Notes under the pieces: model-generated
The model's input: the letters and a program-made list of their open reading frames with translations, nothing else
Databases searched by the model: none
Told to the model about the DNA's origin: nothing
Shown: one piece after another, positions 3,601 to 39,402 of the stretch
Numbering within the stretch: the stretch's first letter is position 1
Layout: every line of letters starts with the position of its first letter
Source of the DNA: Prevotella sp.
GTDB lineage: Bacteria > Bacteroidota > Bacteroidia > Bacteroidales > Bacteroidaceae
Reading direction: 5' to 3'
DNA: 39,658 nt
Assembly: GCA_017415455.1 (NCBI GenBank)
Contig: JAFQGS010000051.1
Location: 1 to 39,658 of the forward strand
Translations under genes and position numbers: made by a program

Positions 3601-3931
3601 TGTTGCACAAGATGATGCAGCCAAGACATTGGGGCTTTCGGAATATGAATATGCTTTCTATTCAGCGGTAGCAGATAATGATAGTGCCATGGAACTGATG
3701 GGAAAAGACAAACTTCGTGAATTGGCTGTGGTATTGACTGAGACAATACGGAATAATGCGTCTATTGATTGGGAAATTAAAGAAAATGTACGTGCAAAGA
3801 TGCGTGTAGCCATCAAACGTTTATTGCGTAGATATGGTTATCCGCCTGATATGCAATTGTTGGCTACGGAAACGGTGATTAAGCAAGCGGAAATGATTTC
3901 TGCAGAACTGATCAGTACAAACAAAGAATAA
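698..3931 (+). CDS. hsdR: Type I restriction enzyme R subunit (HsdR)
   Basis: This 1077-residue protein is the motor and nuclease subunit of a type I restriction-modification complex; it translocates and cuts DNA lacking the host methylation mark. The N-terminal nuclease domain shows D145, then E159-L-K161 (PD-ExK pattern), followed by the QxxxY motif (Q176-Y180) typical of HsdR. The helicase core follows: Walker A HTQGSGKS near residue 335, DEAH in [13 protein letters not shown] near 437, FTGTPIE near 485, and QAIARVNR near 708. Length is normal for the family. An alternative ATG lies two codons in, at 704. No hsdM or hsdS is seen; they should be left of the window, with Kiwa genes in between. 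No frameshift or missing catalytic residue is visible, so it looks functional. Confidence 0.96.
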
Positions 3932-17640: not shown

Positions 17641-18327
17641 TTATCTTATGTAGTCTACAATTTTATCAATTCTTTTTGCATAATACTTTTCGTAATTCTT
17701 TTCTAGTTTGTATTGTGGTATTCGTTCATCCTCAGAATATAATTTCTTTTCATGTTCTATAATTTCATCTACAGAAAATTTAAAGCCTATTACTCTTGCT
17801 GGATTTCCTATTACAATAGAATACGGTGGTACATTATTCCGACATACAGAACCTGAACCTATAACAGAACCACGTCCAACTTTGACTCCTGCTAAAAGGG
17901 TTACATTCGATGCTATCCATACATCTTCTTCTACAACGACATCTTTATCCATATAAGTTTCTTTTTCTGAGTCTGAAATGAACCTACACCATACACCAAC
18001 GTGTGAGGTATGGCTGCCTGTAACAACAGTTAATCCTTCTGCTGCACCAGAATTTCGTTTCATTATGAATTTTGCTTTTGTCGTTAGGATTGTCGCATTT
18101 CCCAAGATGCTGGTGTATTCATTCAGATATACATTTTCTATTCCCTTTATTATAGCAGGGAATCTTACAAAGGCAGTTGGATGTATGTAACCGAATTTTC
18201 TTCTTGTATTTGCAAAATAACCTTTATATATAGATAGCAAAATACTAAATAATGTTGAATTTTTTATTCTTATCTTTATTTTCTCACTTAATCTAAGTTC
18301 ATCCCAAGATTTCATTTGAATCTGCAT
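17641..18327 (-). CDS. Hexapeptide-repeat (left-handed beta-helix) acyltransferase
   Basis: The 228-residue protein has the hexapeptide pattern of XAT/CatB-like acyltransferases: IHPTAFVRFPAIIKGIENVY (about 48-67), GSHTSHVG with the likely catalytic His near residue 105, VVVEEDVWIASNVTLLAGVK and VGRGSVIGSGSVCRNNVPPY, then SIVIGNPARVIGFKFS. It would put an acyl group on a sugar hydroxyl or amine. Its ATG overlaps the stop of the ketoacyl synthase gene by one base (TAATG), so it belongs to the ACP/SDR/KAS unit and is the best candidate for transferring the acyl chain made by that unit. It resembles the other hexapeptide protein at 24771-25385. The region is AT-rich compared with the genes to its left. 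Confidence 0.88.
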   Translation of the reverse strand: MQIQMKSWDELRLSEKIKIRIKNSTLFSILLSIYKGYFANTRRKFGYIHPTAFVRFPAIIKGIENVYLNEYTSILGNATILTTKAKFIMKRNSGAAEGLTVVTGSHTSHVGVWCRFISDSEKETYMDKDVVVEEDVWIASNVTLLAGVKVGRGSVIGSGSVCRNNVPPYSIVIGNPARVIGFKFSVDEIIEHEKKLYSEDERIPQYKLEKNYEKYYAKRIDKIVDYIR

Positions 18328-19328
18328 TATTTAAAGTTTAACATACAACCGCCCCAAGACAGGCCAACGCCAAATCCTGTTATCATCACATTCATACCTG
18401 ATTGTATTCTCTTGTTCTGTATACAGTCTTTCAACGCAATCATAACAGTAGAACTTACTGTATTTCCTGTTTCTTCCAAATTTATATGGAATTTATCCTT
18501 TGGCAATAAACACACTTTACGTATTGTGTTTAGCATAAATTTGTTTGCCTGATGAAAGACATAATAATCAATTTCGTCTTTTTCAATACCATTTTTCCTA
18601 AGAATTTCTTTCATCATGGCAGGAACTGCATCTAATGTGAAATTAAATATTGCAGAACCGTTCATATACAAATAATCATCATATCTTAAATGTCCGTCTT
18701 CATCTTCGACATAAATTCCTGTAGCATTTTTATGACGGGCCGCACCAGTCTTTACGATAAGGTTTTCTGCGCCAGTACCATCTGTTCCTAAAGAGAACTC
18801 TCCAACTTCTGCAAACCCTTCAGTAGAAACCAAACATGCAGCAGCTCCATCACCGAAAATAGAACGATTGCTTTTATCTGATGGATGTAGGTATTTTTGA
18901 TAGGTTTCTGCGGTTAATAATAAAACATTCTTTGCTATACCTGCGGTAATTAATCCTTTAGCTATAGCTAATCCATATATACAACCCGAACAACCTAAAT
19001 TATAATCAAAAGCCCCTGCTGTAGTCGGTATTCCTAAACGATTCTGCAAAATACAGGCAGTAGATGGCAAGAAATAATCAGGGCTTTGCGTACACAACAT
19101 GATAAAGTCTATTGACTTTGGATCTATATTATATTCTGCAAAAAGATTCCTTGCCGCTTTTTCTGCCATATCTCCTGCTGTTTCGTCTTCTGCGGCCAAA
19201 TGCCTTGAATTAACACCAACCTTTGCCGCGACCTTATCAACACTCCATTCAGGAAACTCCCTTAACAATTCATCATTGTTTACCCGTTTTTCTGGAAGAT
19301 AATATGATATGCCTTTAATATATGCCAT
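18327..19328 (-). CDS. 3-oxoacyl-ACP synthase III-like (FabH family)
   Basis: The 333-residue protein has the full thiolase-fold catalytic set: Cys113 in YNLGCSGCIYG, His259 in YVFHQAN and Asn289 in EETGNTVSST, plus FGDGAAACLV near 158-167 and the C-terminal GFGVGLSWGG. KAS III condenses acyl-CoA with malonyl-ACP to give a 3-oxoacyl-ACP. Placed with a dedicated ACP and a ketoreductase inside a polysaccharide operon, it most likely builds a short 3-hydroxyacyl group for sugar decoration rather than serving housekeeping lipid synthesis. It ends with a one-base overlap on the hexapeptide acyltransferase gene and starts 25 bases after the reductase gene. The exact acyl primer cannot be read from sequence. 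Confidence 0.93.
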   Translation of the reverse strand: MAYIKGISYYLPEKRVNNDELLREFPEWSVDKVAAKVGVNSRHLAAEDETAGDMAEKAARNLFAEYNIDPKSIDFIMLCTQSPDYFLPSTACILQNRLGIPTTAGAFDYNLGCSGCIYGLAIAKGLITAGIAKNVLLLTAETYQKYLHPSDKSNRSIFGDGAAACLVSTEGFAEVGEFSLGTDGTGAENLIVKTGAARHKNATGIYVEDEDGHLRYDDYLYMNGSAIFNFTLDAVPAMMKEILRKNGIEKDEIDYYVFHQANKFMLNTIRKVCLLPKDKFHINLEETGNTVSSTVMIALKDCIQNKRIQSGMNVMITGFGVGLSWGGCMLNFK

Positions 19329-19353
19329 AAATGAATAAAAATTTTAATGATAT

Positions 19354-20109
19354 TTATACAAGAATGCCTTCCCCTCCTCCAGAGATGTCAATTGCGCTAC
19401 CTGTCATCCATGTTGATGCATCACTTAATAGATATATCGTTAAATTAGCAACATCTTCTACTTTTCCAAATCTTTTTAAGGGGTAGTTTTGTTCAGCTGT
19501 TTTCAGGTCTTCCTCATTTAATACATTTGTAATTAAATCAGTCCAAACCATTCCTGGAGAGATGCAATTAACTCTAATTTGCCTTGACGCTAATTCCAAT
19601 GCCAAACATTTTGCATAACTAATAATTGCTCCTTTAGATGCGCTATAAATAGAGTTACCCATGGAAGGTGAATCTGCGGCACGAGATGCAATAAAAACGA
19701 TAGATGCAGACTTGCTTATTTTTTTTTGTTTTAGAAGTTCTGCTTGTAATAACATTGGAGCCTCAACATTCGTTTTCATTATGAAATCTATATCCGCTTG
19801 TTTAATAGCCTTACAAGGAATCCTGTTAGCAACACCAGCACAGTGAACTATGCCGTCAAGTTTAGGCATGTCAGAACACAACAAACGTATATCATCTTGA
19901 TTATTTAGGTCTGCGACAATATATTTATGTTCAGTACCATGCATAGAAGCAATAACATCTTTCAGCCGTTCCTCGTTTCTTCCGTTGATTATAATTGTTG
20001 CCCCTATCTTTGCGCAAGCAACAGCGATACCTCGTCCTATCCCAGACGAGGCACCTGTTACCAATATCACTTTTCCACTCAGAGAAAAAGGATTAAAGTT
20101 CTCTGACAT
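19354..20109 (-). CDS. Short-chain dehydrogenase, probable 3-oxoacyl-ACP reductase
   Basis: The 251-residue classical SDR has TGASSGIG at residues 18-25 for NAD(P)H binding, HCAG at 89-92 (NNAG variant), and the catalytic Ser142, Tyr155 and Lys159 (ASRAADS, YSASK). INGRNEERLK after the second strand suggests NADPH preference. With KAS III downstream and an ACP one base upstream, reduction of a 3-oxoacyl-ACP to a 3-hydroxyacyl-ACP is the likely reaction; a sugar-modifying SDR is the alternative but fits the context less well. Confidence 0.9.
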   Translation of the reverse strand: MSENFNPFSLSGKVILVTGASSGIGRGIAVACAKIGATIIINGRNEERLKDVIASMHGTEHKYIVADLNNQDDIRLLCSDMPKLDGIVHCAGVANRIPCKAIKQADIDFIMKTNVEAPMLLQAELLKQKKISKSASIVFIASRAADSPSMGNSIYSASKGAIISYAKCLALELASRQIRVNCISPGMVWTDLITNVLNEEDLKTAEQNYPLKRFGKVEDVANLTIYLLSDASTWMTGSAIDISGGGEGILV

Positions 20110-21819: not shown

Positions 21820-22206
21820 TTAAATGGGGTTATATCCATTTACTTTGTTCCATATGGAACTATTAATATTATCAGTATTGAAATTAACAAGCACACCTCT
21901 GTGCAATCCGGATATCCTCAGGTATGTTAATATTTGTAGGTGGAATACTTCTTTCATATCCATAACTGACTTTATTTCCACAATAACACACTGTTCTACA
22001 AGTAAGTCAATTCGTAGTTCTGTTTCTAACAAATGTCCGTCAACCACGATAGGGACAGGAACCTGTCGTTCAACCTTTAATCCTCGTTTCTTCAAAAAAT
22101 ATTCCAATGCCTCTTCATATACAGACTCCAAAAGACCTGGTCCAAGCGCATTATATGTATCGTATATAGCTCCCCGAATCTGATATGTTACGTTATCTTC
22201 TTTCAT
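21820..22206 (-). CDS. GxxExxY protein (PDDEXK_3 family)
   Basis: The 128-residue protein shows the signature GPGLLESVYEEAL (about 22-34; GxxExxY), then VDGHLLETELRIDLLVEQ and VIVEIKSVMDMKEVF (about 73-87), with the D-x(n)-ExK nuclease-like core, and the C-terminal LHRGVLVNFNT. The family is related in fold to PD-(D/E)xK nucleases; its role is not established. It has no evident part in polysaccharide synthesis. It is flanked on both sides by CACGGAT/CACGAATTACAC text, which I associate with these genes in other genomes, so it probably arrived as a small repeat-bounded insertion between two glycosyltransferase genes. Confidence 0.92.
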   Translation of the reverse strand: MKEDNVTYQIRGAIYDTYNALGPGLLESVYEEALEYFLKKRGLKVERQVPVPIVVDGHLLETELRIDLLVEQCVIVEIKSVMDMKEVFHLQILTYLRISGLHRGVLVNFNTDNINSSIWNKVNGYNPI

Positions 22207-23632: not shown

Positions 23633-24778
23633 CTAATTATCAAGTAATTTTTCTACTTTTCTAATAATATCGTCATTAGAATATTCGTAAGAGCTGATAC
23701 TCTCTTTCATTTTTGTATATATGCCATTCTCATCATTAATTATTTCAACTAACAAATCAGGCATTTCTTCTAAGCTGCATACCCATCCGCAATCCTTCTC
23801 AACAACTTCGTTTGCCACAGGGAAATTATTTGAGACTACAGGTGTATGCAATATCTTAGATTCAAAAATTGTATATGAAAAACTTTCTGAATCAGACGTA
23901 CAAATATGTAAATCTGCATTTCTAAAATATGGATATGGATTATCTTTTGCCTCTAATATCTTTACAACATCTTCTAAATTGTATTTTTTTATTTCTTCTT
24001 TTGTCTGTTCTTGCATTTGACATCCAGCTCCAATTATATACCAAATAAATCTTTTGGTTACTAACTTCTTTATTTCATTTGACAATTGTGGTATTTTCTC
24101 AAATTGTTTTCCTTTTGCAAAACGTCCAATAGATATAATGTTAAAGTGAGATACCCTGGTATTGTATATATTGTCATTTATTATGTCTTGGGACATAGAC
24201 TTAATCTTGTCAACATTTAATGTGTTGTATATAGATAATGCCTTACCCTTACATTCTGGGATTAGGGATATAAAATCATTTACAGCTGTTTTAGAAACAC
24301 AAATTATATTGTTGAATTTCTGGTACATTTTAATATCTGCTGGAGTTCCTGCGGATGCCATTCTTGAATACATGCAGTGTATCCATGCAATTTTTCTCAC
24401 ATTTTCAAAATACGAGGCAAACTCTGTAGCAGTTCCTTCCTGATATGCTATGACAACATCAAAAATGTATTTATCTTGTAACCATTTTGCTTCCTTTTTA
24501 TATAGCCAGGAAAAGTCAGCCTCTTTATTTATTTTATGCCATAAACCACAAATTTTTCTTGTATAAAAGTTATCATGTACATAATTATATAATTTGCTCT
24601 TTTTAATTATATATGGTTTCAACACATCCTTGTAATATAGTCCCCCGTCTTCGTATAAACTATAGACCGATATCTCATATTTTTGTTTGTCTATTAACGA
24701 AAGTAGATTCTCAAGAGATTTATTCGTTCCTCCGTGAGAATACTCTGGGATTATAAAAAGTACCTTCTTTTTATTCAT
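23633..24778 (-). CDS. Glycosyltransferase family 4
   Basis: About 381 residues. The start is ATG 24778 (MNKKKVLFIIPEYSHGGTNK, the glycine-rich N-terminal loop of GT4 enzymes), eight codons inside the longest frame. Further features are the KIAWIHCMYSRM stretch, IICVSKTAVNDFISLIPECK, FNIISIGRFAKGKQFEKIPQ (donor domain start) and the C-terminal SDSESFSYTIFESKILHTPV with the EX7E-like glutamates. Typical retaining GT acting in the cytoplasm. Its start overlaps the stop of the hexapeptide acyltransferase gene upstream by 8 bases, so the two are translated together. AT-rich, as is everything to the right of about 23.6 kb. Confidence 0.92.
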   Translation of the reverse strand: MNKKKVLFIIPEYSHGGTNKSLENLLSLIDKQKYEISVYSLYEDGGLYYKDVLKPYIIKKSKLYNYVHDNFYTRKICGLWHKINKEADFSWLYKKEAKWLQDKYIFDVVIAYQEGTATEFASYFENVRKIAWIHCMYSRMASAGTPADIKMYQKFNNIICVSKTAVNDFISLIPECKGKALSIYNTLNVDKIKSMSQDIINDNIYNTRVSHFNIISIGRFAKGKQFEKIPQLSNEIKKLVTKRFIWYIIGAGCQMQEQTKEEIKKYNLEDVVKILEAKDNPYPYFRNADLHICTSDSESFSYTIFESKILHTPVVSNNFPVANEVVEKDCGWVCSLEEMPDLLVEIINDENGIYTKMKESISSYEYSNDDIIRKVEKLLDN

Positions 24779-25385
24779 GCCTATATTTTTCTTGTATTGC
24801 AACCATTTCGTCTAAAGAAAATCGTTCCGCTATTGGATAAAGTTTTTCTTCGTGTTCAACAATTTGTTGGGGAGTGAACAAGAAACGTTTTATACGTGCA
24901 GGATTACCAACTATAATGGAATATGGAGGCCATTCACCACTTACAACACATCCTGCTCCCACAATACATCCACGCCCTATGTGCGCACCATTAAGTAGTG
25001 TAACGTTTATTCCCATCCATACATCCTCTTCAACAATAATATCACGGTCATATCGTTTGTCTTTGTCCAATTCATCTTTTATAGCATCTGTAACGTCATG
25101 TTTTAGCATTCCGACAACAGCCATGTGATTTCCTGGACATACACACAGATTATATGAAGAGAAAGATCCACGCTTTATAATGAATTTTGAGCGAGGATTT
25201 AAGATTATAGCCCCCTCTGGTATAGAGACTTTTTCATGTAGAAATAAATTTTTCTTGCAGAAGACGATGGCGTCTTCTGCAAGATGCGCATCTTCGGCCA
25301 TATATCCATATTCATCTCTGCGATTGATATGAAACAGACGATATATTTTGTTTCGTATTCTTTGTTTAATTCCTATATAATGCAT
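24771..25385 (-). CDS. Hexapeptide-repeat acyltransferase (XAT/CatB-like)
   Basis: The 204-residue protein carries left-handed beta-helix repeats: MAEDAHLAEDAIVF, VSIPEGAIILNPRSKFIIKR (about 53-72), PGNHMAVVGM with the likely catalytic His near residue 87, IIVEEDVWMGINVTLLNGAH and IGRGCIVGAGCVVSGEWPPY, then SIIVGNPARIKRF. It acetylates (or otherwise acylates) a sugar. It is related to the protein at 17641-18327, sharing the order of motifs and the VGNPAR end, but it is not beside an ACP gene, so acetyl-CoA is the more likely donor. It lies 7 bases after the sialyltransferase-like gene. Confidence 0.9.
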   Translation of the reverse strand: MHYIGIKQRIRNKIYRLFHINRRDEYGYMAEDAHLAEDAIVFCKKNLFLHEKVSIPEGAIILNPRSKFIIKRGSFSSYNLCVCPGNHMAVVGMLKHDVTDAIKDELDKDKRYDRDIIVEEDVWMGINVTLLNGAHIGRGCIVGAGCVVSGEWPPYSIIVGNPARIKRFLFTPQQIVEHEEKLYPIAERFSLDEMVAIQEKYRHE

Positions 25386-25392
25386 AATTCTG

Positions 25393-26490
25393 TCAAACTA
25401 ATGGTTCTATCATTTTTAACATATTTTCCATATATGTCAGATTTGTAAGTCCTACTTCTTTACATTTTTTATATACAACAGGCATTAGCTTTATAAAGTT
25501 GGTTTTAGGGAATGCATACCCGTTATAAAAGAATGTAGCAGCATTAAAAAAATATATATCATCAAAATGATACTTTTGAAGATAGTATTCTACACAAATG
25601 TTTATTTCTTTAGAAAGCACCCTGAATTTCATGCCTGAGTCTTGGACTATTTGCAATATACGTTCACGTGATTCGTCTAATTCTCGTGGGTGAAACTTTA
25701 TATAGAGAGTTGTATCGGGGTTAATTCCTTCTACGCATTCTTTTATAGCCTCAAAATATAAATAAAGATATTCTTTCGGCATCAGTTCACGCATTGGATC
25801 TGTCATCAACATTACACGCCGTTCATTTTCGTATTGAATATTAGAGTCTATATATTCCTCTAATTTTGATGAAAACAATGGTTGTACATTTAAGCGGACA
25901 TCAAAAGGTTTGTTGTGATACGGAATAATACTGAATCGTTTGTCTATTGGAATGTCATCATATGGACGATTAGGGGCACAATGCCATTTTGCAAACTTTA
26001 CTCCAAATAAAGGCTCAAAGCAGAAATTATCAAAGATTAAATATTTGATTTTTTCAACGTAACTATTCTTCAGAGTATAAGGTCTATTAATATAATGACT
26101 TGTTCCTTCCTCAAAGAAAACCACTTTATATTTTCTTTTACTAAAGTACACCGCACTCATTCGGCAGGTCTGGTTTAATATCTCCCCTAAATAAATTGTT
26201 TTAACTTTATGCTGTCTTGCGATTTTATTTAATTGCTTGTATTTTTTATGCGCTTGCCAGAGTTCTTTCGGATTGTAAAGATTCAATTCCATTATCTTTT
26301 CAATACCTTCAAATTTTATCTTTTCTTTCCATAAGTCGTCAATGTACATAATATTATAAATCTCATAGAAATCATAATGATTACCGATATGAGTGTACAA
26401 TAGTATATTATTCCCCAGATTTTCCTGCTTAATAATCTGTTGTGCAACAAACAACTGCAAAGGAGTAAAAACGAAAAACAGATTTCCCAT
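25393..26490 (-). CDS. Sialyltransferase-like glycosyltransferase (GT52 / polysialyltransferase type)
   Basis: The 365-residue protein starts NLFFVFTPLQLFVAQQII, the N-terminal signature of the GT52/PF07388 group. It has the two motifs shared by bacterial GT-B sialyltransferases: FFEEGTSHY (about 125-133, D/E-E-G type) and KFHPRE (265-270, HP motif). The C-terminal IYFFNAATFFYNGYAFP fits the Ser/Ala-Ser/Thr motif region. These enzymes use CMP-activated sugars. A CMP-transferase (29550-30284), an aldolase and a KdsC-like phosphatase lie just upstream in the same operon, so this is the best candidate for adding the CMP-activated ulosonic acid they would produce. It lies 2 bases after the acyltransferase-3 gene. 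Confidence 0.8.
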   Translation of the reverse strand: MGNLFFVFTPLQLFVAQQIIKQENLGNNILLYTHIGNHYDFYEIYNIMYIDDLWKEKIKFEGIEKIMELNLYNPKELWQAHKKYKQLNKIARQHKVKTIYLGEILNQTCRMSAVYFSKRKYKVVFFEEGTSHYINRPYTLKNSYVEKIKYLIFDNFCFEPLFGVKFAKWHCAPNRPYDDIPIDKRFSIIPYHNKPFDVRLNVQPLFSSKLEEYIDSNIQYENERRVMLMTDPMRELMPKEYLYLYFEAIKECVEGINPDTTLYIKFHPRELDESRERILQIVQDSGMKFRVLSKEINICVEYYLQKYHFDDIYFFNAATFFYNGYAFPKTNFIKLMPVVYKKCKEVGLTNLTYMENMLKMIEPLV

Positions 26491-26492
26491 GA

Positions 26493-27458
26493 TTATTTCT
26501 TTTTCCCTATTAAGACTGGACAGTATTTCTCACAAAATACTATTAAAACATATGAAACAATCAATATGATGATAATGTTTAGCATTGATTGAATTACTTC
26601 TGGTACAGGTAGTGCTGGTATTTTCCAATAAATTATTAAATGTGTAGCTAAAATTAGCAGAGTGCCATTTGATAGTTTTTCAACTATTGGACTTGTTATG
26701 TTAAGGTGTATTGCACATAGAAGCATCAATGATGCAGATAAGCCTATAGTAGAGATATAAAATAAAATAATATTGATTCCTATTCTACAGTGATATACAT
26801 TTATGCCATTTTCATGTGTCGAGCTATTCAATAATCCGATAACAGCTGTAATAACAAATATAGTTATTGCAGAAAATGTCAATAAAGCAGTGTTATATTT
26901 TTTTATGATTCTAAAGTAGTCACGTTTCTTTATCATATATCCAACAATGAAAAATGGGAAACATAGACACATGGTCTTTAATTGGAAATAATCATTTGTT
27001 TGATCTATCTTTATAAGATCAAATAAAACATAAGATATTAACGAAAACAGAAAGAGGCTATACATATTTAATGTATTAAAAGCAGCAAGTACACGCATGC
27101 CCATTAATGCAACAAGAAACCATAGTGGGACCATTAAATAACATAAAGCTTCTTGATTGCCTAATAGAATATTTGTTATAAATCCTTTTTGATACCCACC
27201 TCCTAAAGGTAACGGGAGTATATATATGAAATTATAAATCAAATATGGCAGTAATAAAGACCATATCACAACCATTACTTCTTTTTTTATACTTCTTTTT
27301 CTATATAAATATCCGGAGATCATGAAGAACAATGGCATGTGAAAAAGAAATATAAAATTCCGAAAGACTGGTGATATATGTCCCCATACAGTCAAGGTTA
27401 TGGCAATGAATTTACACCAATCAATCCAAATAATTCTGTTGTTTGACGAATTGCTCAT
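26493..27458 (-). CDS. Acyltransferase family 3 membrane protein
   Basis: The 321-residue protein has about ten membrane helices and the family start IIWIDWCKFIAITLTVWGH (about 9-27), where the conserved His lies in WGH, followed by FIFLFHMPLFFMISGYLYRK (35-54). The family moves acetyl or succinyl groups across the membrane to sugars. Its ATG overlaps the TAA of the KdsC-like gene by one base, so it is embedded in the proposed ulosonic acid module and may acylate that sugar or its product. All family motifs are intact, unlike the related gene at 34647-35730. Confidence 0.9.
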   Translation of the reverse strand: MSNSSNNRIIWIDWCKFIAITLTVWGHISPVFRNFIFLFHMPLFFMISGYLYRKRSIKKEVMVVIWSLLLPYLIYNFIYILPLPLGGGYQKGFITNILLGNQEALCYLMVPLWFLVALMGMRVLAAFNTLNMYSLFLFSLISYVLFDLIKIDQTNDYFQLKTMCLCFPFFIVGYMIKKRDYFRIIKKYNTALLTFSAITIFVITAVIGLLNSSTHENGINVYHCRIGINIILFYISTIGLSASLMLLCAIHLNITSPIVEKLSNGTLLILATHLIIYWKIPALPVPEVIQSMLNIIIILIVSYVLIVFCEKYCPVLIGKKK

Positions 27459-27919
27459 TATTTTATGAATTGTTTGACGAATTCTCTAACGGCTCCTTCT
27501 CCACCTTTAGCATCACAAACATAATCAACGATATCTTTAATATCATCTTCCGCATCTTGAGGACATGCGGTGAACCCACATGCTTGCATGCACTCTACGT
27601 CATTATAGTCATCTCCGATATAGGCTATTTCGTCCAATGAAATATTATGCTTACCTGCTACCTCTTTTAATTTACTGAGTTTATCGCTTATTCCCTGATA
27701 TATTTCTTTTATTTTTAATTCTTCAGCACGTTTTGCAACAATATCAGACGAACGCCCTGTGATTATAACAGGTATCACGTTTATGCTATCTAATGTATAG
27801 ATAGTATAACCATCTTTAATGTTGAAGGCTTTGAACATCTCGCCATTTCCTGACATATATATATAGCCATCAGTAAGTGTACCATCAACATCCATGACTA
27901 GCATTTTAATTTTTCCCAT
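27458..27919 (-). CDS. KdsC-like HAD-IIIA phosphatase
   Basis: The 153-residue protein shows every HAD motif in KdsC order: MDVDGTLTDG with nucleophile Asp10 and Asp12, FNIKDGYTIY (about 32-41), VIITGRSSDIVAKRAEEL (motif II), a conserved Lys in SDKLSKL, YIGDDYNDVECM (motif III/IV, about 101-112), and the KdsC-type tail AKGGEGAVREFV. Family members remove phosphate from Kdo-8-phosphate or from nonulosonic acid 9-phosphates. Here the enzyme probably dephosphorylates the product of the neighbouring aldolase. It starts 3 bases after the aldolase gene and overlaps the acyltransferase gene by one base. It is shorter than Escherichia coli KdsC, as is usual for secondary pathways. Confidence 0.92.
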   Translation of the reverse strand: MGKIKMLVMDVDGTLTDGYIYMSGNGEMFKAFNIKDGYTIYTLDSINVIPVIITGRSSDIVAKRAEELKIKEIYQGISDKLSKLKEVAGKHNISLDEIAYIGDDYNDVECMQACGFTACPQDAEDDIKDIVDYVCDAKGGEGAVREFVKQFIK

Positions 27920-27922
27920 TTT

Positions 27923-29545
27923 TTATCCGAATAAATCTTTGTAAATACTTGGTGTGATAAATTTAATTCCTTTGGTCTCCCCTATGGAATCAATAAAATT
28001 CTTCAGATGCCTTGTGATTGCTTTATTAATTTCATCGTATTTCGGACGGAATCGTTCTTCGTCAAAAATATTAGACTTAAAATAACTGCCCTGTTCAGAA
28101 AAACCATCGAATCCAGCAATGAAATATGATATTATCCCTATTCGCTGAAGAATACGAAGAAGCATCAAAGTTGTATTGTCTGAATATTCTTCTGTTCGGT
28201 CAACATAAGAATCATAATTAACGATGATGTCAGAGAGATTATCTGATTTTACGTTTGAAGTAATTATAGATTGAACTTTTTTCCGCAGATCTTTATACTT
28301 ATCATATCGTTTATTGCTTCCCCAGAATACAAAGCATTTATATTTAAGGTAATCTTCATCAATAAAGTTTACCATTATAACAGTAAGATCTTTGTTTTCA
28401 ATTTCCTGTATAATGCTATCTTTATTATTTGCAATAGAACTGCCAGGCATAAGTAAAAGTATATTTTTATCCAAGAGCCTCTTTTTTAGAAGAGTCAATG
28501 CTTCCTTATCATCAACCTTAACATTATTATATTCTTGATATAACCGTTGAATGTTATCATAATCATAACGCATTCTGAGTTGAGGGTCTATCATGCTTAT
28601 AATATACTTAACATCTTTGGTTGCCAGTCTAAATTTCTCTGTTAGGTAAATAATATTATTTGGATGTGACTTGTATATTCCTCCCATCAGTGCAGGAATG
28701 GAATATCCCCATTTATGCTCTAATTGATATTTGTATATATGATTGTCAATAATATCAAGTACTCCATCAAAATCATAGTCATAATTACGTTTACGCACCA
28801 AATAATCTACAATAAGTTCTGTATTTAAATTTCCTGCAACTTTTCCCATTCCATTTAATGTGCAATCAATAATAACCTCACGCTTGCCATTGCTGAGTCT
28901 GATTATTTCTTGAGCAAATGCAAATGATAGTTGGTAGTTGTTATGGGAATGAAAGTCTATGGCGATGTTTTCATCAAGATTGTGGTCAACCAACGTATAT
29001 AAGCGGTCTACGTCATCCATATACATTGCACCGTAAGTATCTACAATACCAAATCCAGTTGGCTGTATCTCGTTAACAAGGTCCACAACCTCAAGTAATT
29101 CTCTATCTGTATATCCCAAGGAATTCACTCCTTGTACAAAAAGCAAATATCCTTTTTCTTTTACCGACTGTAGGCATTGAATTATCTGTTCCCTGTCTGT
29201 CTCGAAATTCTTTCGGGTAAAACCAATTCGCAGGCCATCTATAGATGTACCGTCATACGGCTTCAGACTATCCCAGTCATACATACCATAGTCTATAAAA
29301 GCAACATATTTTGTATTTCTGCTTCTATCAACGAATGGGCGTATTTGATCAACATCTGTAAAGAACGTAGTGTTGCCATTATAATTGGTGTTATGACGAT
29401 CGCGTAAAAAACCTATTTCAACAATATCAATATTTGCAGCTGCGAGATGATAAGATATGTCTCTTATCTCACTATCTGGAAATTTACAGTCAATTATACG
29501 ACCTCCATCTCTAAGAGTACAGTCTAAAATCTTAATATTTTTCAT
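27923..29545 (-). CDS. DRE-TIM (HMGL-like) aldolase fused to an unassigned C-terminal domain
   Basis: Residues about 1-300 are a DRE-TIM metallolyase domain: KILDCTLRDGGRIID (metal-binding Asp8, Arg12, Asp13), DIVEIGFLRD (40-49), the metal-ligand pair DFHSHNN (His199, His201) and GMGKVAGNLNTE (232-243). Such enzymes make or break carbon bonds next to a 2-oxo acid, for example pyruvate with an aldehyde. Residues about 355-540 (ILLLMPGSS, VIMVNFIDEDYLKYK, FVFWGSNKRYDK, IITSNV, end IKFITPSIY) form a Rossmann-like domain that I cannot name. The gene lies between KdsB-like and KdsC-like genes, exactly where a KdsA or NeuB synthase would be expected, so it probably makes a 3-deoxy-2-ulosonic acid phosphate from pyruvate and a sugar aldehyde. 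Substrate is inference. Confidence 0.88.
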   Translation of the reverse strand: MKNIKILDCTLRDGGRIIDCKFPDSEIRDISYHLAAANIDIVEIGFLRDRHNTNYNGNTTFFTDVDQIRPFVDRSRNTKYVAFIDYGMYDWDSLKPYDGTSIDGLRIGFTRKNFETDREQIIQCLQSVKEKGYLLFVQGVNSLGYTDRELLEVVDLVNEIQPTGFGIVDTYGAMYMDDVDRLYTLVDHNLDENIAIDFHSHNNYQLSFAFAQEIIRLSNGKREVIIDCTLNGMGKVAGNLNTELIVDYLVRKRNYDYDFDGVLDIIDNHIYKYQLEHKWGYSIPALMGGIYKSHPNNIIYLTEKFRLATKDVKYIISMIDPQLRMRYDYDNIQRLYQEYNNVKVDDKEALTLLKKRLLDKNILLLMPGSSIANNKDSIIQEIENKDLTVIMVNFIDEDYLKYKCFVFWGSNKRYDKYKDLRKKVQSIITSNVKSDNLSDIIVNYDSYVDRTEEYSDNTTLMLLRILQRIGIISYFIAGFDGFSEQGSYFKSNIFDEERFRPKYDEINKAITRHLKNFIDSIGETKGIKFITPSIYKDLFG

Positions 29546-29549
29546 ACTG

Positions 29550-30284
29550 TTACGGGGTTAATCTCTTTTCTATAATCATCCTTACCTTTTCCAAGTCATT
29601 TTTTGTATCGACAGACAATGACTCTGATTCAATTTTCTTATAATAGATAGGTATTCCATTCTCAAGAAATCTCAGATGGTCAATATCCTCTATTTTCTCT
29701 AATGTACCCATCCCAGCATGCGCAAAAAAATCAAGAGCTTTTTTGTTAAAGCATTCTATTCCTATGGCTTTTTTATATGTGAAAAGCAAAGAACCCTTAG
29801 GACATGGTATTGGGTATCGGCTTTGGTACATACACGCACCTTCTTTATTAAGAACAATCTTTACATTTGCAATATCCATAAGTTCTGCAGGATCTTTTAA
29901 CTCTCTATATACACTTTGGAAAAATGGCCTGTCGTTAATTATTCTATCAGGAAATGCCTGACTGATATTCTCTGGTGATATCAATGGCTCATCACCATTA
30001 ATACTTATATAGTAATCAGCTTCAACAAGTTCAGTTACTTCCCATATTCGATGTATATGATTAGGTGTATCTGTACCTGTCATTACATATTTCATATTGT
30101 ATTGTTTACAACATTCTGCAATGCGTTCATCATCAGTTGCAATGTATACATCTGAAAACTCTTTTACTTGGGTTACTTGATTGTACACCCACCAAATCAT
30201 TGGTTTTCCACAAATGTCCGCTAATGGTTTTCCTGGGAAACGGCTTGATGCGTAACGAGCAGGAATTACTCCTATTACTTTCAT
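29550..30284 (-). CDS. KdsB-like CMP-ulosonate cytidylyltransferase
   Basis: The 244-residue protein follows KdsB: VIGVIPARYASSRFPGKPLA (3-22, nucleotide loop), DVYIATDDERI (about 45-55), YISINGDEPLISPENI (about 91-106; NGDEP in place of the usual QGDEP metal site), the YPIPCPKG substrate region and the C-terminal ESESLSVDTKNDLEKVRMII. KdsB joins CMP from CTP to Kdo or a related 2-ulosonic acid in the cytoplasm. The NGDEP variant and the neighbouring aldolase rather than KdsA suggest a different acid than Kdo. It starts 16 bases after the GT2 gene upstream and ends 4 bases before the aldolase start. Confidence 0.9.
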   Translation of the reverse strand: MKVIGVIPARYASSRFPGKPLADICGKPMIWWVYNQVTQVKEFSDVYIATDDERIAECCKQYNMKYVMTGTDTPNHIHRIWEVTELVEADYYISINGDEPLISPENISQAFPDRIINDRPFFQSVYRELKDPAELMDIANVKIVLNKEGACMYQSRYPIPCPKGSLLFTYKKAIGIECFNKKALDFFAHAGMGTLEKIEDIDHLRFLENGIPIYYKKIESESLSVDTKNDLEKVRMIIEKRLTP

Positions 30285-30300
30285 AGTTAGTTAATTATTT

Positions 30301-31224
30301 TTATATCCAATGTATGAAATCACATGAATATATGTATTTGTAATATTTGATTTTGTATAATGCATTTAATATTTTTCCCTTGACTTTATTATTTCTCCAG
30401 TACATTTTTTTCCATAAACAAAGATATTGTATTTGTTCTTGGGATAATTTTTTGTTTCTTTCCAAGATTGCATTGATTATATAAATTCTGTCTTCATAGA
30501 AATGATGATTTCGCCATGCAAGTATTTTATTTCTACGTTTGTTTTTTATTCCAGTAACACTAGATGAAAGCCTTCTATATTTCAACAAAGATTCTTTTAT
30601 GTAATTTATCCCTCCATAGAATGAGGCATATGCCGCTAGCCATTCATCATGAAAACCTACATTTTCAGGAACAGGTCCTGCTTGTATAAATAATTCTTTT
30701 CTAATCATCATTGAGGCTCCTTGAAATGGATTACGAAATAATATAATCGTCATTGCTTTGTATAAGTCATTCTTAGGAATGTAATCAAATGCATCTTGAT
30801 AACTTAAAGTCATCCCCATTGGTGTTCCATCCTCATATATCATATCAGAATTTCCACAAGCCATCATTTTATCTCCTATGGTATTCATAAGTAACTCTAT
30901 GTGGTCATGTCGCCATATGTCATCTTGATCAGAGAATGCAATCAAATCACAATTTGACAAAGATATACCTCTTTCAAAATTTCGTTTAACACCTATATTT
31001 ATATTGTTTGGGAAAATAGAAATACGTTTATCGCGTTCTGAATATTCATTTAATATATCAAGTGTTCTATCTGTAGAACAATCATCACATATGATTAATT
31101 CAAAATTCTGCACACTTTGATTAAGTATTGAATCAAGTTGTTCTTTTAAATATCTTTCGCCATTATATGTGGCCATTACTATTGAAACCAAAGGTTTCTC
31201 GTAATTAACGTATTGCGTTTTCAT
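30301..31224 (-). CDS. Glycosyltransferase family 2
   Basis: The 307-residue protein shows a GT-A fold with VSIVMATYNGERYLKEQLDS (13-32), ELIICDDCSTDRT (42-54), the SDQDD metal site at 98-102 and DEWLAAY (catalytic acidic region, near 192). This rhamnosyl/GlcNAc-like GT2 subgroup is frequent in O-antigen and capsule loci. The donor cannot be deduced. Upstream lies a 218-base gap that holds AT-rich inverted repeats but no gene; this gene could start a new transcript, though no TAnnTTTG box is visible. Confidence 0.92.
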   Translation of the reverse strand: MKTQYVNYEKPLVSIVMATYNGERYLKEQLDSILNQSVQNFELIICDDCSTDRTLDILNEYSERDKRISIFPNNINIGVKRNFERGISLSNCDLIAFSDQDDIWRHDHIELLMNTIGDKMMACGNSDMIYEDGTPMGMTLSYQDAFDYIPKNDLYKAMTIILFRNPFQGASMMIRKELFIQAGPVPENVGFHDEWLAAYASFYGGINYIKESLLKYRRLSSSVTGIKNKRRNKILAWRNHHFYEDRIYIINAILERNKKLSQEQIQYLCLWKKMYWRNNKVKGKILNALYKIKYYKYIYSCDFIHWI

Positions 31225-34646: not shown

Positions 34647-35730
34647 TTATAGTTTAAGCCAAGGGCTTTTTATCCAACGATTGCTGTAGGCTATCCCACA
34701 TGTAGCAAGCATGGCAAAGAGGATATAAGCAAGCCACCAGCCTTTTACGGAGTATTCTGTTATAACGGGGAATTCTGCAAGACGCTCTATAGGAAGGCCG
34801 TATATAAATATAATCAGTAATGACACAAACTTAAATGAAAGGAAATGCCATGTCAGGATGGTGAGAGTGTTATTTCCTATGAATTGTAGCACATATGCAA
34901 ATTTCCCTTTTATTCTGTCCCACGGCAGACTGTATAACATCCATGTGCCAATTGTGCCTGTTACGATATAAGGAAGCATTCGGCTGTTTTCGTATGTTAT
35001 AGCACCCATACCCATTTTCCATGCTACACTTCCTATTGCAATTAAGATAATTGAAAGAATGATTTTTGTCTTATTGAATGTCTTTACATTTTTATACTTG
35101 AACCAATATCCTATCAGGAAAAATATAGAAGCTAAAAGAAGTTGCGGAGTAATGTGCAGAATTGTTAGCGAGCGGTGTTCATGATTGAGCCACAAACAGA
35201 CAATAAGCACAACTACCCCCCCCTGATAATGAGACAGTTAAACGATTAAACGTTTTTATTCTTGCAGAAACAAATATTATTACGAAACCAATTATACTTC
35301 CATACAGAAGGGCTTTCATGAACCAATACCCACCCAACAACTGTTCATGACCGTTCATACGTACAAGTATACTTTCTATACGAGATAAAAAATCATCATA
35401 GGTATATAAACTTGACACTCCTCCATTGTACCCGTATTCGCCATTATAAATATTCAGGTCAAAGAATACATTATGTAAAGCCAGAAACAAGAGACTCCAT
35501 TTTATGTAAGGCCACCAAATCCCTTTAATCCGCTGCCATACAAATTTGAATGGCTCTTGCACGTATCTCTCCTTGAAACAGTAACCAGATACGAAAAAGA
35601 ATAAGGGCATGTGGAACATGTAGACGAAATCATTCATTAATGTAATTCCATGTCTGCAGTGACAAAGGACCATTAGGAAGATTCCACTTGCTTTAAGATA
35701 TGTAATATTTTTATTTGAATGAACTTTCAT
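34647..35730 (-). pseudogene. Acyltransferase family 3 gene, frameshifted at a G8 tract (possibly phase-variable)
   Basis: Two overlapping frames together make one complete acyltransferase-3 protein. The first (35730-35179) has the family start ITYLKASGIFLMVLCHCRHG and YMFHMPLFFFVSGYCF, and the second (to 34647) the C-terminal membrane helices, for example IGNNTLTILTWHFLSFK. They are out of register by one base at a run of eight C on the + strand (35216-35223, G8 on the coding strand). With seven G the frame runs on as SLSGGVVVLIVCLWLNHEH and gives a 360-residue protein of normal length. As read, the protein stops at 35179 after 183 residues and lacks the later helices. Slippage at the tract could switch it on and off; a sequencing error is the alternative. 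It overlaps the pyruvyl transferase gene by 20 bases. Confidence 0.85.
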
Positions 35731-36952
35731 TTTTATTTATCCATTCCATGAACTTGTCCATGCAACTGGCTGCAATCTGTTTTGCTCTGTCTCTTACCTG
35801 AACATCAGGCTTAAGTTTTGGAATTATATCTTTTATTTCAGACAAACATTTTTCTTGGTTTTCTTCATTATCAAGTGTTTGGGTGAAATCAACACACCAT
35901 TCAGATTTACCTAATGTTTCAAGCAAGCCTGCTATCTTATGTTCATAACTGAGAGCTATGCATGGTACACCTTGATTAATGGCAAAGACGATAGAATGAT
36001 AACGTGCACCTATAACAAACTTTGCTCCACTAATTATTGTTTGTTGAATGTCACTGCTGTAACAATCTGCCGTAACAATGACACGCTTGTCATTTTTCTT
36101 CTCGGCAAGTTCACGAAATAGCAACACATCATTTAATGCATAATTATTTGCACAGAATAACTGAGGTAACATTACAATATTCAATTCTGGATTGCATTGC
36201 CAGATAGTGTCTATGACTTTGCTATAAAAATCAATTACTGTTTCATGGGCGATCCTATCCTTATAAGCATAATGCCAAAGAAGATAATTAGGTACAAAAA
36301 CCACATACGGCTTATCACCTATTACATATTTTAATTCATATGGAATCTCAACTTGCGGGGAATCAAGGAACGCTGAATCTACTGTTGATACATAAGACAC
36401 TCCTAACTTTTCTGCCAGTTGCTCACTTTTACGATCCCTTATTGAAAGAAAACTAAAATAATTCAACATCTCAAGACTAATTCTCTTGAACGTACGATGG
36501 CTTTCTGTTTCTGTTGGGAATGGTCCAAAAGAACGACCATAATACACAAGTGGTTTATTAAAAGTTTTGGCAAGTTTCAAATGCATTAAATGATTCCAGT
36601 CTTGAAATCCTCCCATGCAAATACCACCAGGAGCACAAAGGACACAGTCAGCCCAGTCATATATTTCCTTTATTTTCATAAACCGAGGGCGATATTTCCA
36701 TAAATTAAATTTTTCCAAATTAATTCCATGCCAATATAGCACACTATGCCCAATATAAGAAATCGGACTTTGTAAATAGTCTACATTGGGACTATATACA
36801 GCATATTGTCTTATACTTTCTACTAGATCTTTTGAGTATAACACCCTGATTTTTGCACTTGGGAATTTATTAACCAAAGTCCTTATCAGTCCCTTATGTG
36901 CCGACTCATCCCCTCTGTTAAAAGGAGGCTGATTTATTATTAATATATTCAT
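35711..36952 (-). CDS. Polysaccharide pyruvyl transferase family protein
   Basis: The 413-residue protein fits PF04230 (WcaK/CsaB type): ILIINQPPFNRGDESAHKGL (3-22, the glycine and Asp loop), DCVLCAPGGICMGGFQDW (about 102-119), LVYYGRSFGPF, FSFLSIRDRKSEQLAEKLG (near 170-188), and the C-terminal GAKFVIGARYHSIVFAINQG, then VPCIALSYEHKIAGLLE. Members put a pyruvate ketal on a sugar from phosphoenolpyruvate, making the polymer acidic; some relatives have other transferase roles. It begins 6 bases after the nitroreductase-like gene. The pair of a PF04230 protein with a nitroreductase-like protein recurs in Bacteroidota capsule loci to my knowledge. Confidence 0.92.
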   Translation of the reverse strand: MNILIINQPPFNRGDESAHKGLIRTLVNKFPSAKIRVLYSKDLVESIRQYAVYSPNVDYLQSPISYIGHSVLYWHGINLEKFNLWKYRPRFMKIKEIYDWADCVLCAPGGICMGGFQDWNHLMHLKLAKTFNKPLVYYGRSFGPFPTETESHRTFKRISLEMLNYFSFLSIRDRKSEQLAEKLGVSYVSTVDSAFLDSPQVEIPYELKYVIGDKPYVVFVPNYLLWHYAYKDRIAHETVIDFYSKVIDTIWQCNPELNIVMLPQLFCANNYALNDVLLFRELAEKKNDKRVIVTADCYSSDIQQTIISGAKFVIGARYHSIVFAINQGVPCIALSYEHKIAGLLETLGKSEWCVDFTQTLDNEENQEKCLSEIKDIIPKLKPDVQVRDRAKQIAASCMDKFMEWINKNESSFK

Positions 36953-36958
36953 AGTTAC

Positions 36959-37969
36959 TTAGTTGTGAAATGTATTTGTCAGAGAAATGTCTTTCCGCGT
37001 AGATACGGCAACATTAAAATCTTCTTTTAAATTACCAAAAGCGACAATAACAATTGGAACTTCATGCTCTGGTATTCCAAAAGCTTTTAAACCCCTTAAT
37101 TTATTTTCATAAAATCCGCAAGATAACGGAATACATCCCAGGCCTAATGAATGAAGGGCATTTATCAGATTCATACTATAAAGTCCTCCATCAATATAGC
37201 ATTGATGAACCTCATATGATAAAAATGCTTTTAAGTTCGCTGTAACGAGTATTGAGTTTTTAAGTTCATCTTCAAAGCCATTACATCCCCCCTGCCAACG
37301 CATGAGCCTGACGCTTTCTTCTCCTTGGAATACATGCGTTTTCCATCCTTGCCGATTACATGCAGAAGGTGTACATTGCGCAAGTTGCAGAGCTTTGATA
37401 ATCTTTTCTTTGCTAACAGGCTCTTCAGAATAATATCGAATGGAATGTCTGCTCTTTAATATTGACTCGTAGTCAGCGTTGCATTGATTGTGCAAATCGT
37501 TTTTGTAAACTTTTACAATTCCTGCATGAGATGTTATTTCTAACCTTGTAAGTTTGACGATTTCTTTAAATTTGGATTTTATATCGTCTATTTGAACACC
37601 ACTATTTTCCGTATACTCTATATAGTTTTTTATTGTTGATAGTGGATATTGCAGAAATCCTAAATCTTTATTCCCGTAGGATCTATAATATTTCTTTAAT
37701 CTATGAAGTAGGCTAATAACCTTTTCTTGACCAAACCCTTTTCGGGGATTCCTCATAGACATCCCCTTCTCTATGACATGATTCTCACGCAATATCGTAT
37801 ATTGCATCTTTTCTATATCATCATCAGTATCCACAGAAGCATTGTATAATGATGTTTTTTTTAAGAATGAATATGATTCTTTTAAAAAAAACTCCTGCAA
37901 CGTGATGTCTCTACCTGGGAAAATAATTTTGAGACATAACTTTTTAATAAATTGTTTAATTGTAATCAT
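36959..37969 (-). CDS. Nitroreductase-family protein with N-terminal extension
   Basis: Residues about 165-336 form an FMN-binding nitroreductase domain: ESILKSRHSIRYYSEEPVSK (166-185), CTPSACNRQGWKTHVF (198-213), ILVTANLKAF, YIDGGLYSMNLINALHSLGL (256-275) and the CGF motif that binds flavin. About 160 residues before it are an extension seen in capsule-locus members (HVIEKGMSMRNPRKGFGQ). It is cytoplasmic. Its redox substrate is unknown; context suggests a sugar or pyruvyl-linked step. The start codon overlaps the flippase stop (ATGA, 37969-37966), so it is translated in step with it. Confidence 0.88.
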   Translation of the reverse strand: MITIKQFIKKLCLKIIFPGRDITLQEFFLKESYSFLKKTSLYNASVDTDDDIEKMQYTILRENHVIEKGMSMRNPRKGFGQEKVISLLHRLKKYYRSYGNKDLGFLQYPLSTIKNYIEYTENSGVQIDDIKSKFKEIVKLTRLEITSHAGIVKVYKNDLHNQCNADYESILKSRHSIRYYSEEPVSKEKIIKALQLAQCTPSACNRQGWKTHVFQGEESVRLMRWQGGCNGFEDELKNSILVTANLKAFLSYEVHQCYIDGGLYSMNLINALHSLGLGCIPLSCGFYENKLRGLKAFGIPEHEVPIVIVAFGNLKEDFNVAVSTRKDISLTNTFHN

Positions 37970-39402
37970 TGTGCATTTTTAAAGAACATTGATACTGTAT
38001 CTTGCAGTAAACTCTTAAAAAATATTCTTGAGAATAATATATAATACAATAAGCCAACCAAGACTCCTGAGATTAATTGCATATATATATTGGGCAATAT
38101 ATATACGATAGTAAACATTATAACACCCATTGCTATAGAGTTTAGAAGAATAGGTAACACATCTTGTATCTGATGCCAAAATGACAAATCCAAACATTTA
38201 CTTGTGTATATGGTGTTTAATACAAAACAATATAAATACCAGAGACTAAAGGCTATACACATTCCCGTTACACCAAATGGTATTGCACCAAACAAACTTA
38301 ATAAACCGACAGAGCGCTTATATACTTCCAACTTCAAGATAACATCAGTTCTGTTCACTACCTTTAGAATACTAAGATGTATGTAACTTAACGGTTGCCA
38401 TATTAATGCTATGCAGAGTATCTGTAGCATTATAATACATCCATACCATTGCTCATTCAGAAGGATTTTCACGAAAGGGGATGCTAATGAGGAGAGGCCT
38501 AGCATCATTGGAAAGACAACGAATGCGGTAGACCTTATCATACGACGATAAATATTTATCAAGTGAGGAACATCATTGTTTAACTTACTCAAAATAGGGA
38601 ATGATACATTTCCTACAATTCCACTAAAGTTAGTAGATGGCAATGACGCAAATCCCATAGCACGAGAATACAGCCCAAGCTGACTGGCATTAAAATATTT
38701 TCCTATTACAAGAGGATATAGATTATCATATGCCTGCTGAATCAAGGAAGCACCTAGGATCTTACTACCATATCCCCACAAGTATTTGAATGAATCTCTT
38801 GAAAATTCCAGAGTAGGACGCCAACCTGCAAGAATCCATAGCAATATGCAGTTGAAGAATCCTCCTACTACTTGTTGAAAGACCAAGGCCCATACCCCAT
38901 ATCCTTTGTATGCTAAAATGATGCCGATTACTCCTGAAAAGATTTGTGTACTTATACTTAATTTGGCAGGTGTACTAAAATCAAGTCTTATTGCAAACTG
39001 GGCACTCTGCACAACACAAAGTGAATTTATTATAACACCAATACCTATCACTCTAAGTACGGGTGTCAATATTGGCATATCGTAGAAATCAGATATAAAA
39101 GGTGCAGAAACGAATAATATAAAATATGCTAATATACCGACAGCAATATTAAAGAAGAATTCTGTGGAGAAATCTATTTGCTTTCTGTCCTGTTTGCATA
39201 TTAATGCCTGAGAGAAACCACAATCAATAAATACACTGATTATGCATATGAAAACTCCAAGTATACCTAATACCCCATAGGCATCAGGGGAAAGAAGACG
39301 AGCAAGAATGATACCAAAGGTAAAATGTATACCTTTGTTTGCGATATTTCCAGCCGCGCTCCAATATAACCCTTTTTTTGTCTGTTCTTTAATACTACTC
39401 AC
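37966..39402 (-). CDS. wzx: Wzx-type polysaccharide flippase (PST family)
   Basis: The 478-residue protein has twelve to fourteen membrane helices and the WzxC-like start TKKGLYWSAAGNIANKG with ILARLLSPDAYGVLGI (about 33-48), RLDFSTPAKLSISTQIFSG and YNLYPLVIGKYFNASQLGLY. Flippases of this group carry lipid-linked repeat units from the cytoplasmic to the outer face of the inner membrane, where the Wzy polymerase (16366-17550) takes over. It is the first full polysaccharide gene read in from the right edge; a short gene of unknown role lies 18 bases upstream, so transcription comes from outside the window. Confidence 0.94.
   Translation of the reverse strand: MSSIKEQTKKGLYWSAAGNIANKGIHFTFGIILARLLSPDAYGVLGILGVFICIISVFIDCGFSQALICKQDRKQIDFSTEFFFNIAVGILAYFILFVSAPFISDFYDMPILTPVLRVIGIGVIINSLCVVQSAQFAIRLDFSTPAKLSISTQIFSGVIGIILAYKGYGVWALVFQQVVGGFFNCILLWILAGWRPTLEFSRDSFKYLWGYGSKILGASLIQQAYDNLYPLVIGKYFNASQLGLYSRAMGFASLPSTNFSGIVGNVSFPILSKLNNDVPHLINIYRRMIRSTAFVVFPMMLGLSSLASPFVKILLNEQWYGCIIMLQILCIALIWQPLSYIHLSILKVVNRTDVILKLEVYKRSVGLLSLFGAIPFGVTGMCIAFSLWYLYCFVLNTIYTSKCLDLSFWHQIQDVLPILLNSIAMGVIMFTIVYILPNIYMQLISGVLVGLLYYILFSRIFFKSLLQDTVSMFFKNAQ

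Follow-up and report, generated by a model that had tools for sequence, protein, structure and literature searches.

We analysed a 39,658-nt stretch of DNA from Prevotella sp. (assembly GCA_017415455.1, contig JAFQGS010000051.1; the genome is 2.5 Mb and 91% complete), referred to below as the window. On its minus strand is a surface polysaccharide locus, in which many glycosyltransferases (GTs) are accompanied by modifying enzymes and a flippase-like gene (37966-39402). Within this locus, genes for a KdsB-like cytidylyltransferase, a DRE-TIM aldolase, a KdsC-like phosphatase, an acyltransferase-3 and a polysialyltransferase-like GT follow one another in this order of transcription, all on the minus strand. 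A first-pass annotation had described them as almost touching, and the gaps along the row, taken from the coordinates of the open reading frames (ORFs), are 4, 3, -1 and 2 nt. Its gene coordinates were correct, as were the motifs it had picked out: NGDEP in KdsB, EEG and HP in the GT, and the metal residues D13, H199 and H201 in the aldolase. We think it likely that the first three of these touching genes encode a pathway to an ulosonic acid activated with cytidine monophosphate (CMP), in which the carbon–carbon bond is made by the metal-dependent DRE-TIM aldolase in place of the synthases KdsA or NeuB, which depend on phosphoenolpyruvate (PEP).

In the proposed pathway, the aldolase would condense a phosphorylated aldehyde with pyruvate or a closely similar 2-oxo acid, yielding the phosphate of a 2-keto-3-deoxy-aldonic (ulosonic) acid. 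The KdsC-like phosphatase would then remove the phosphate, the KdsB-like enzyme would couple the free acid to CMP, and the neighbouring polysialyltransferase-like GT would transfer the ulosonic acid into the surface polysaccharide of the locus. Pyruvate is suggested as the donor by the family and motif of the aldolase, and we infer it together with the product, the phosphorylated aldehyde, the sequence of the steps and the direction in which the reaction runs. The survey of related loci supports the CMP-ulosonic acid pathway that the first-pass annotation had read from this DNA, while its pyruvate and its product stay presumptive.

The window locus looks like one instance of a widespread module with a DRE-TIM aldolase in place of KdsA or NeuB. 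On balance we lean towards the existence of a second CMP-ulosonate branch built on DRE-TIM aldolases, spread over at least six phyla and served by interchangeable KdsB- and NeuA-type activating enzymes. The acidic sugars that it would supply to the surface, perhaps with chains of unusual length (C5 to C8), would be missed by current annotation for 3-deoxy-D-manno-oct-2-ulosonic acid (Kdo) and sialic acid, or be wrongly labelled Kdo. The presence of KdsB- and NeuA-like genes is usually taken to indicate Kdo and sialic-acid-like sugars. If the proposal is right, many such genes, including some in Gram-positive bacteria where KdsA and NeuB were not found, activate other, aldolase-made ulosonic acids, and bacterial surface chemistry has been partly misread; there would also be pyruvate aldolases that run synthetically on sugar aldehydes and are useful for making ulosonic acids. 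The exchange of synthase for aldolase in many distantly related bacteria probably marks an undescribed route to acidic surface sugars. Among the matches listed from open-licence PubMed Central, no title or start of an abstract places the aldolase in this role, which is not proof of its being unpublished; PMC13410964 has passages on an unrelated aldolase.

Neighbours of the aldolase gene in related loci

A scan of one genome per species returned at least 565 relatives of the aldolase, of which the best 80 were analysed with up to 8 kb on each side, so that the sample leans to the window's subfamily and to full-length copies. Adjacency was measured between tblastn segments on the same strand and within 300 bp. 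The NeuA-type label was assigned here by similarity to three seed proteins, and all 10 NeuA-type proteins tested exceeded the PF02348 cut-off. A cytidylyltransferase lay upstream of the aldolase in 62 of the 80 loci (34 KdsB-type and 28 NeuA-type; in L082 the KdsB match is partial and lies at the edge of a contig). A HAD phosphatase followed downstream in 44 (25 KdsC-type and 19 other HAD), and both partners were present in 38. The neighbourhood expected from the first-pass annotation thus recurs outside the window. In a within-locus control, a cytidylyltransferase stood directly upstream of 8 of 571 other ORFs, compared with 51 of 93 ORFs overlapping the aldolase (more than the number of loci, because ORF calling split some genes). 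Chance adjacency was rejected on the contrast between the 62 paired loci and this control.

By record title, the loci with an adjacent cytidylyltransferase came from Bacteroidota, Bacillota, Synergistota, Melainabacteria, Verrucomicrobiota and Fusobacteriota, many of them as metagenome-assembled genomes. A search started from KdsB also found an aldolase-KdsB-HAD row on a plasmid of the alphaproteobacterium Leisingera. Over the main part of the alignment this aldolase shows 24% identity, and it may represent a parallel subfamily.

An aldolase tree was built from 73 full-length rows, 57 of them with a KdsB or NeuA label. The partner label changes at least 10 times on this tree, and 7 of the changes are forced by well-supported branches. 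The window aldolase groups with NeuA-linked ones, in a set of 13 rows (11 NeuA, 2 KdsB) with support 96/97. Two distantly related cytidylyltransferase subfamilies have repeatedly taken each other's place beside the aldolase. Unless both act on the aldolase product, this pattern is difficult to account for. The pairing of cytidylyltransferase with aldolase has probably been kept by function.

The aldolase and its second domain

Residues R12, D13, E43, R106, D169, H199, H201, N239, E243, W279 and Y281 are invariant in all 73 full-length aldolases, the window's included. An R-D pair at the first strand together with HxH metal ligands is, we presume, the DRE-TIM metallolyase signature, and the window aldolase carries it as R12, D13, H199 and H201. 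The first-pass annotation had put forward a comparison with 4-hydroxy-2-oxovalerate (HOA) aldolases. The metal residues are kept and the best model matches are the HOA aldolase models, at scores far below their cut-offs (TIGR03217, 68.7 against 286 bits; NF006049, 79.2 against 229). The closest solved structure by sequence is 3dxi, 'Putative aldolase' (8e-17).

The window aldolase has the motif GMGKVAGN (GMG[RK]xxGN-like in the family) without GxGER, which we take to be the signature of the Claisen-condensing DRE-TIM group of isopropylmalate and citramalate synthases, and this favours an aldolase. We give very little credence to a Claisen-type condensing enzyme which, like isopropylmalate synthase, would use an acyl-CoA donor and make a branched or carboxylated acid for activation by KdsB. 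Weak matches to isopropylmalate and citramalate synthase models point that way, but the best matches are the HOA models and 3dxi, and GxGER, lacking here, does occur in the two DRE-TIM relatives encoded by the same genome (GIGERAGN and GLGERCGN).

The first-pass annotation had missed a second, C-terminal domain. All 73 rows have this domain by selection, having been chosen for length (8 of the 80 loci with a short best segment were left out), and G368, N431, G478, D480 and G481 are invariant in them. A family scan covered 48 of the 73 aldolases (alignment A4). Pfam MptE-like (PF01973) matched seven of these C-terminal domains at E<=1 (best 8e-5), a D-lyxose isomerase family matched four (best 9e-4), and no family in the Pfam scan matched the window's own copy. 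Profile-profile comparison with 24 MptE-like domains from 20 of the 80 loci, a set free of aldolase rows, gave 95.5% at 11% identity, compared with 0.4% for a KdsB control. A profile search of PDB with the domain returned insignificant matches only (best E 0.2), and PF01973 at 1e-15 had no match in 99 genomes of the class. These alignments suggest a distant kinship of the domain with the MptE-like family.

MptE/DUF115 domains are part of the Maf flagellin glycosyltransferases, enzymes with CMP-nonulosonates as substrates. By analogy with these enzymes, our guess would be that the C-terminal domain may bind or transfer a CMP-sugar. It is absent in L051 and in several single-domain relatives (L008, L010-L016 and L024), and since KdsB still adjoins the single-domain aldolase of L008, it is not indispensable.

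Some related loci have further features of their own. In two of them (L042, 5167-7227; L048, 5117-7201) the gene upstream of KdsB encodes a fusion of a cytidine diphosphate (CDP)-glycerol glycerophosphotransferase with an MptE-like domain. A contig classed as viral, which may be a misclassified bacterial piece, has an aldolase (L108, 1579-3144) that matches query residues 1-535 and so includes both domains. The neighbours of the single-domain relatives L010, L011 and L016 resemble, judged by eye from their first residues, acetolactate-synthase-like thiamine pyrophosphate (TPP) enzymes or CDP-glucose dehydratase, a different sugar context. On a Desulfobaculum plasmid (L024, 6191-9014) two transketolase-annotated genes directly precede the single-domain aldolase, a hint at another precursor route.

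PEP-dependent synthases and the KdsB-like enzyme

With three KdsA and six NeuB-type queries, which do recover each other's kin, tblastn found neither synthase in the window or the 80 loci (1.17 Mb), and PF00793 (KdsA) was not found among the 30 window proteins scanned. A kdsA or neuB gene in the operon, which had been the first-pass annotation's own concern, was thus detected in the window by neither Pfam scan nor tblastn, and its placing of an HMGL-like aldolase in the synthase position stands (PF00682; Table 1). NeuB (PF03102) was also not found in the window's genome, where the single DAHP_synth_1 match resembles 3-deoxy-D-arabino-heptulosonate 7-phosphate (DAHP) synthase/chorismate mutase and falls below the cut-offs of those models.

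A genome-wide check for KdsA and NeuB covered 50 of the 80 genomes. KdsA was over cut-off in nine, and PF03102 was matched over the Pfam cut-off in 44, in 29 of these at more than 100 bits. In 16, KdsA did not reach its cut-off and no NeuB match exceeded 100 bits, although many assemblies may be incomplete. The weakly PF03102-matching protein was scanned in 10 of these 16 and scored above the cut-off for a DAHP synthase each time. These 10 include all five of the 16 genomes that bear strain names and are not metagenome-assembled: Paenibacillus sp. HB172176, Lactimicrobium massiliense, Flavonifractor sp. An82, Bacillus sp. EAC and Proteocatella sphenisci. Judged by these searches, the five have an aldolase-linked KdsB or NeuA with no known PEP-dependent synthase in sight.

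The window KdsB, in which NGDEP occupies residues 96-100, exceeds the cut-off of the subfamily model PRK05450.1-5 (230.3, cut-off 193) and misses that of the KdsB equivalog TIGR00466 (124.8 against 155.2 bits). Its best PDB matches are KdsBs, the top one, 1gq9, being presumably KpsU. Together with the window's, 38 KdsBs from aldolase loci (34 adjacent to the aldolase and 4 elsewhere in the locus) are split, with branch support 99/96, from nine reference KdsBs, the surroundings of which gave no aldolase match. Six of the references are annotated as KdsB (L167, L168, L170, L171, L172 and L175) and three are unannotated (L165, L169 and L174). Position 201 is I in 38/38 aldolase-locus KdsBs and L in 9/9 references; Q203 is present in none of the 38 and R180 in one, compared with all nine references in each case. 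Position 96 is Q in every reference, and among the 38 it is N in 21 and Q in 14. R10, K19, D98 and D226 are kept in all 38. A changed sugar-acid substrate could account for the altered residues. There are two PF02348 genes in the window's genome, and the second, on another contig, groups with the reference KdsBs. The organism is probably a diderm in which Kdo is made in the ordinary way, and the window's KdsB probably a second copy.

Several observations weigh against an aldolase-based pathway. Of 30 genomes from the window's genus, 26 have KdsA over cut-off, and the window's genome (G000) is among the four without. This gap may be one of assembly; with 26 such genomes and a 91%-complete assembly, the absence in the window's genome alone means little, and it was discarded as a strong argument. 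The same count favours a reading in which KdsB and the GT use ordinary Kdo from the cell's KdsA, KdsD and KdsC, and the aldolase serves the same polysaccharide in some other way; nucleotide-site residues as in KdsB and best PDB matches to KdsBs agree with it. We nevertheless think it unlikely, as the second KdsB of the genome is the one that groups with the references, the aldolase-locus KdsBs stand on a separate branch with conserved residues changed, and the row is also seen in genomes that have no KdsA, as well as with NeuA-type partners.

The matches above 100 bits place NeuB elsewhere in 29 of the 50 genomes. These would suit an aldolase that cleaves, or that edits or salvages ulosonic acids made elsewhere, and 4-hydroxy-2-oxovalerate aldolases run in the cleaving direction in catabolism. 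Such a role appears quite improbable for an aldolase whose gene lies among polysaccharide genes, beside activation enzymes, and the 16 genomes lacking KdsA and strong NeuB, incomplete though many may be, offer no such supply of substrate. Also against the proposed pathway, the catalytic His residues of 4-hydroxy-2-oxovalerate aldolases were not seen after the DGG motif of the window aldolase, so that the base would differ. Among the literature matches listed, the parts available give no enzyme activity for the aldolase family.

The survey itself includes 18 loci without an adjacent cytidylyltransferase. In five, a NeuA-type match lies 1.2 to 4.5 kb upstream; in four, a match lies 6 to 8 kb downstream, to KdsB in three and of NeuA type in one. 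L098 has a KdsB 7 kb off on the opposite strand, and L051 is at a contig edge; the flanks analysed of L076, L096, L097, L102, L103, L105 and L107 contain no cytidylyltransferase. An acetolactate-synthase-like TPP enzyme was found in eight of the 80 loci, six of them among these 18, and in L103 and L105 its gene immediately precedes that of the aldolase. For six of the eight, no cytidylyltransferase turned up in the flanks analysed. The unpaired loci and the TPP loci indicate that the aldolase product is not always CMP-activated, and it may be a 2-oxo acid that goes on to CMP activation in some cases and to a TPP enzyme in others. A phosphatase was not within 300 bp downstream in 36 of the 80 loci, 6 of these at contig ends.

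Other genes of the window and comparison with known systems

The GT scores 41.1 bits against a PF07388 gathering score of 23.3, with EEG at residue 127 and HP at 267; D/E-D/E-G and HP are, we assume, motifs of bacterial polysialyltransferase-like GTs. Similar proteins are present in 11 of the 80 related loci. The GT had no PDB match by sequence, and a search for PF06002 (CST-I) matched no genome, controls included, which makes that search uninformative. Its sequence makes the GT a candidate CMP-ulosonate transferase. The KdsC-like phosphatase exceeds the TIGR01670 subfamily cut-off of 106.95 bits (Table 1) and misses the KdsC equivalog NF007019 (154.6 against 208). From its position, the acyltransferase-3 could possibly O-acylate the glycan. 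A second acyltransferase gene, at 34647-35730 on the minus strand, consists of two overlapping ORFs that each match one half of the Acyl_transf_3 domain; a frame change or an error in the sequence seems to have split it.

Elsewhere on the minus strand, the polysaccharide locus includes a FabH-like ketoacyl synthase III and an SDR reductase (18327-20109), an unusual pair there, and a PDDEXK_3 nuclease-superfamily protein of 128 aa within the polysaccharide gene row (21820-22206). A polysaccharide pyruvyl transferase adjoins a nitroreductase-domain protein at 35711-37969 (minus strand). A plus-strand gene at 698-3931 resembles the R subunit of a type I restriction enzyme (1077 aa).

Table 1. Predicted genes and domains around the aldolase, with positions in the window
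Feature	Position	Strand	Evidence
GT2 glycosyltransferase directly upstream of KdsB	30301..31224	-	PF00535 4e-30
KdsB-like CMP-ulosonate synthetase (cytidylyltransferase), 244 aa, NGDEP variant	29550..30284	-	PF02348 7e-41, best PDB match 1gq9
DRE-TIM (HMGL-like/HOA-like) aldolase, 540 aa, extra C-terminal domain	27923..29545	-	PF00682 1e-20
Aldolase C-terminal domain, residues ~352-540, distantly MptE-like	27926..28492	-	alignments, profile comparison
KdsC-like HAD phosphatase, 153 aa	27458..27919	-	TIGR01670 163.6 bits; KdsC relatives in PDB
Membrane acyltransferase (Acyl_transf_3)	26493..27458	-	PF01757 6e-21
Polysialyltransferase-like GT, EEG and HP motifs	25393..26490	-	PF07388 2e-10
Hexapeptide-repeat acetyltransferase, next gene after the GT, same direction	24771..25385	-	PF00132 7e-7

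The Kdo pathway (KdsD-KdsA-KdsC-KdsB) resembles the window's gene row in its KdsC-type phosphatase and KdsB-type cytidylyltransferase, a likeness that probably means CMP activation and transfer by the GT. The two differ in that a non-homologous DRE-TIM aldolase takes the place of KdsA in the window, the window KdsB is on its separate branch, and no KdsD was over cut-off in the window's genome. In contrast, kdsA adjoins kdsB on a Pseudomonas plasmid. A Streptomyces plasmid (L175, 2545-4720) has kdsA, a gene for a SIS-domain protein and kdsB in a row, seemingly a complete Kdo route in a Gram-positive organism.

With the NeuB/NeuA pathways to nonulosonic acids (sialic acid, Kdn, pseudaminic acid and legionaminic acid) the proposed pathway shares its CMP-ulosonate logic, the NeuA-type partner seen in 28 of the 80 related loci and the polysialyltransferase-like GT of the window. 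It differs from them in having no NeuB in the window's genome or the loci, and in the aldolase as proposed former of the carbon–carbon bond. The 4-hydroxy-2-oxovalerate aldolases share with the window enzyme the barrel family, the metal-binding D and HxH, and GxGxxxGN without GxGER, whereas the window enzyme falls far under the curated cut-offs and has the extra C-terminal domain. Their operons also differ from the window, where no aldehyde dehydrogenase was found among the 30 proteins scanned; a degradative HOA operon was rejected on this result and on the low HOA scores. The nearest solved structure, 3dxi, which we take to be Bacteroides vulgatus BVU_2661, is not the subject of any paper among the literature matches listed, as far as their available parts go. 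Its chain of 320 residues is shorter than the 540-aa window aldolase. The relative in L017 (~512 aa) adjoins a PF02348 protein, with three other such loci similar by eye.

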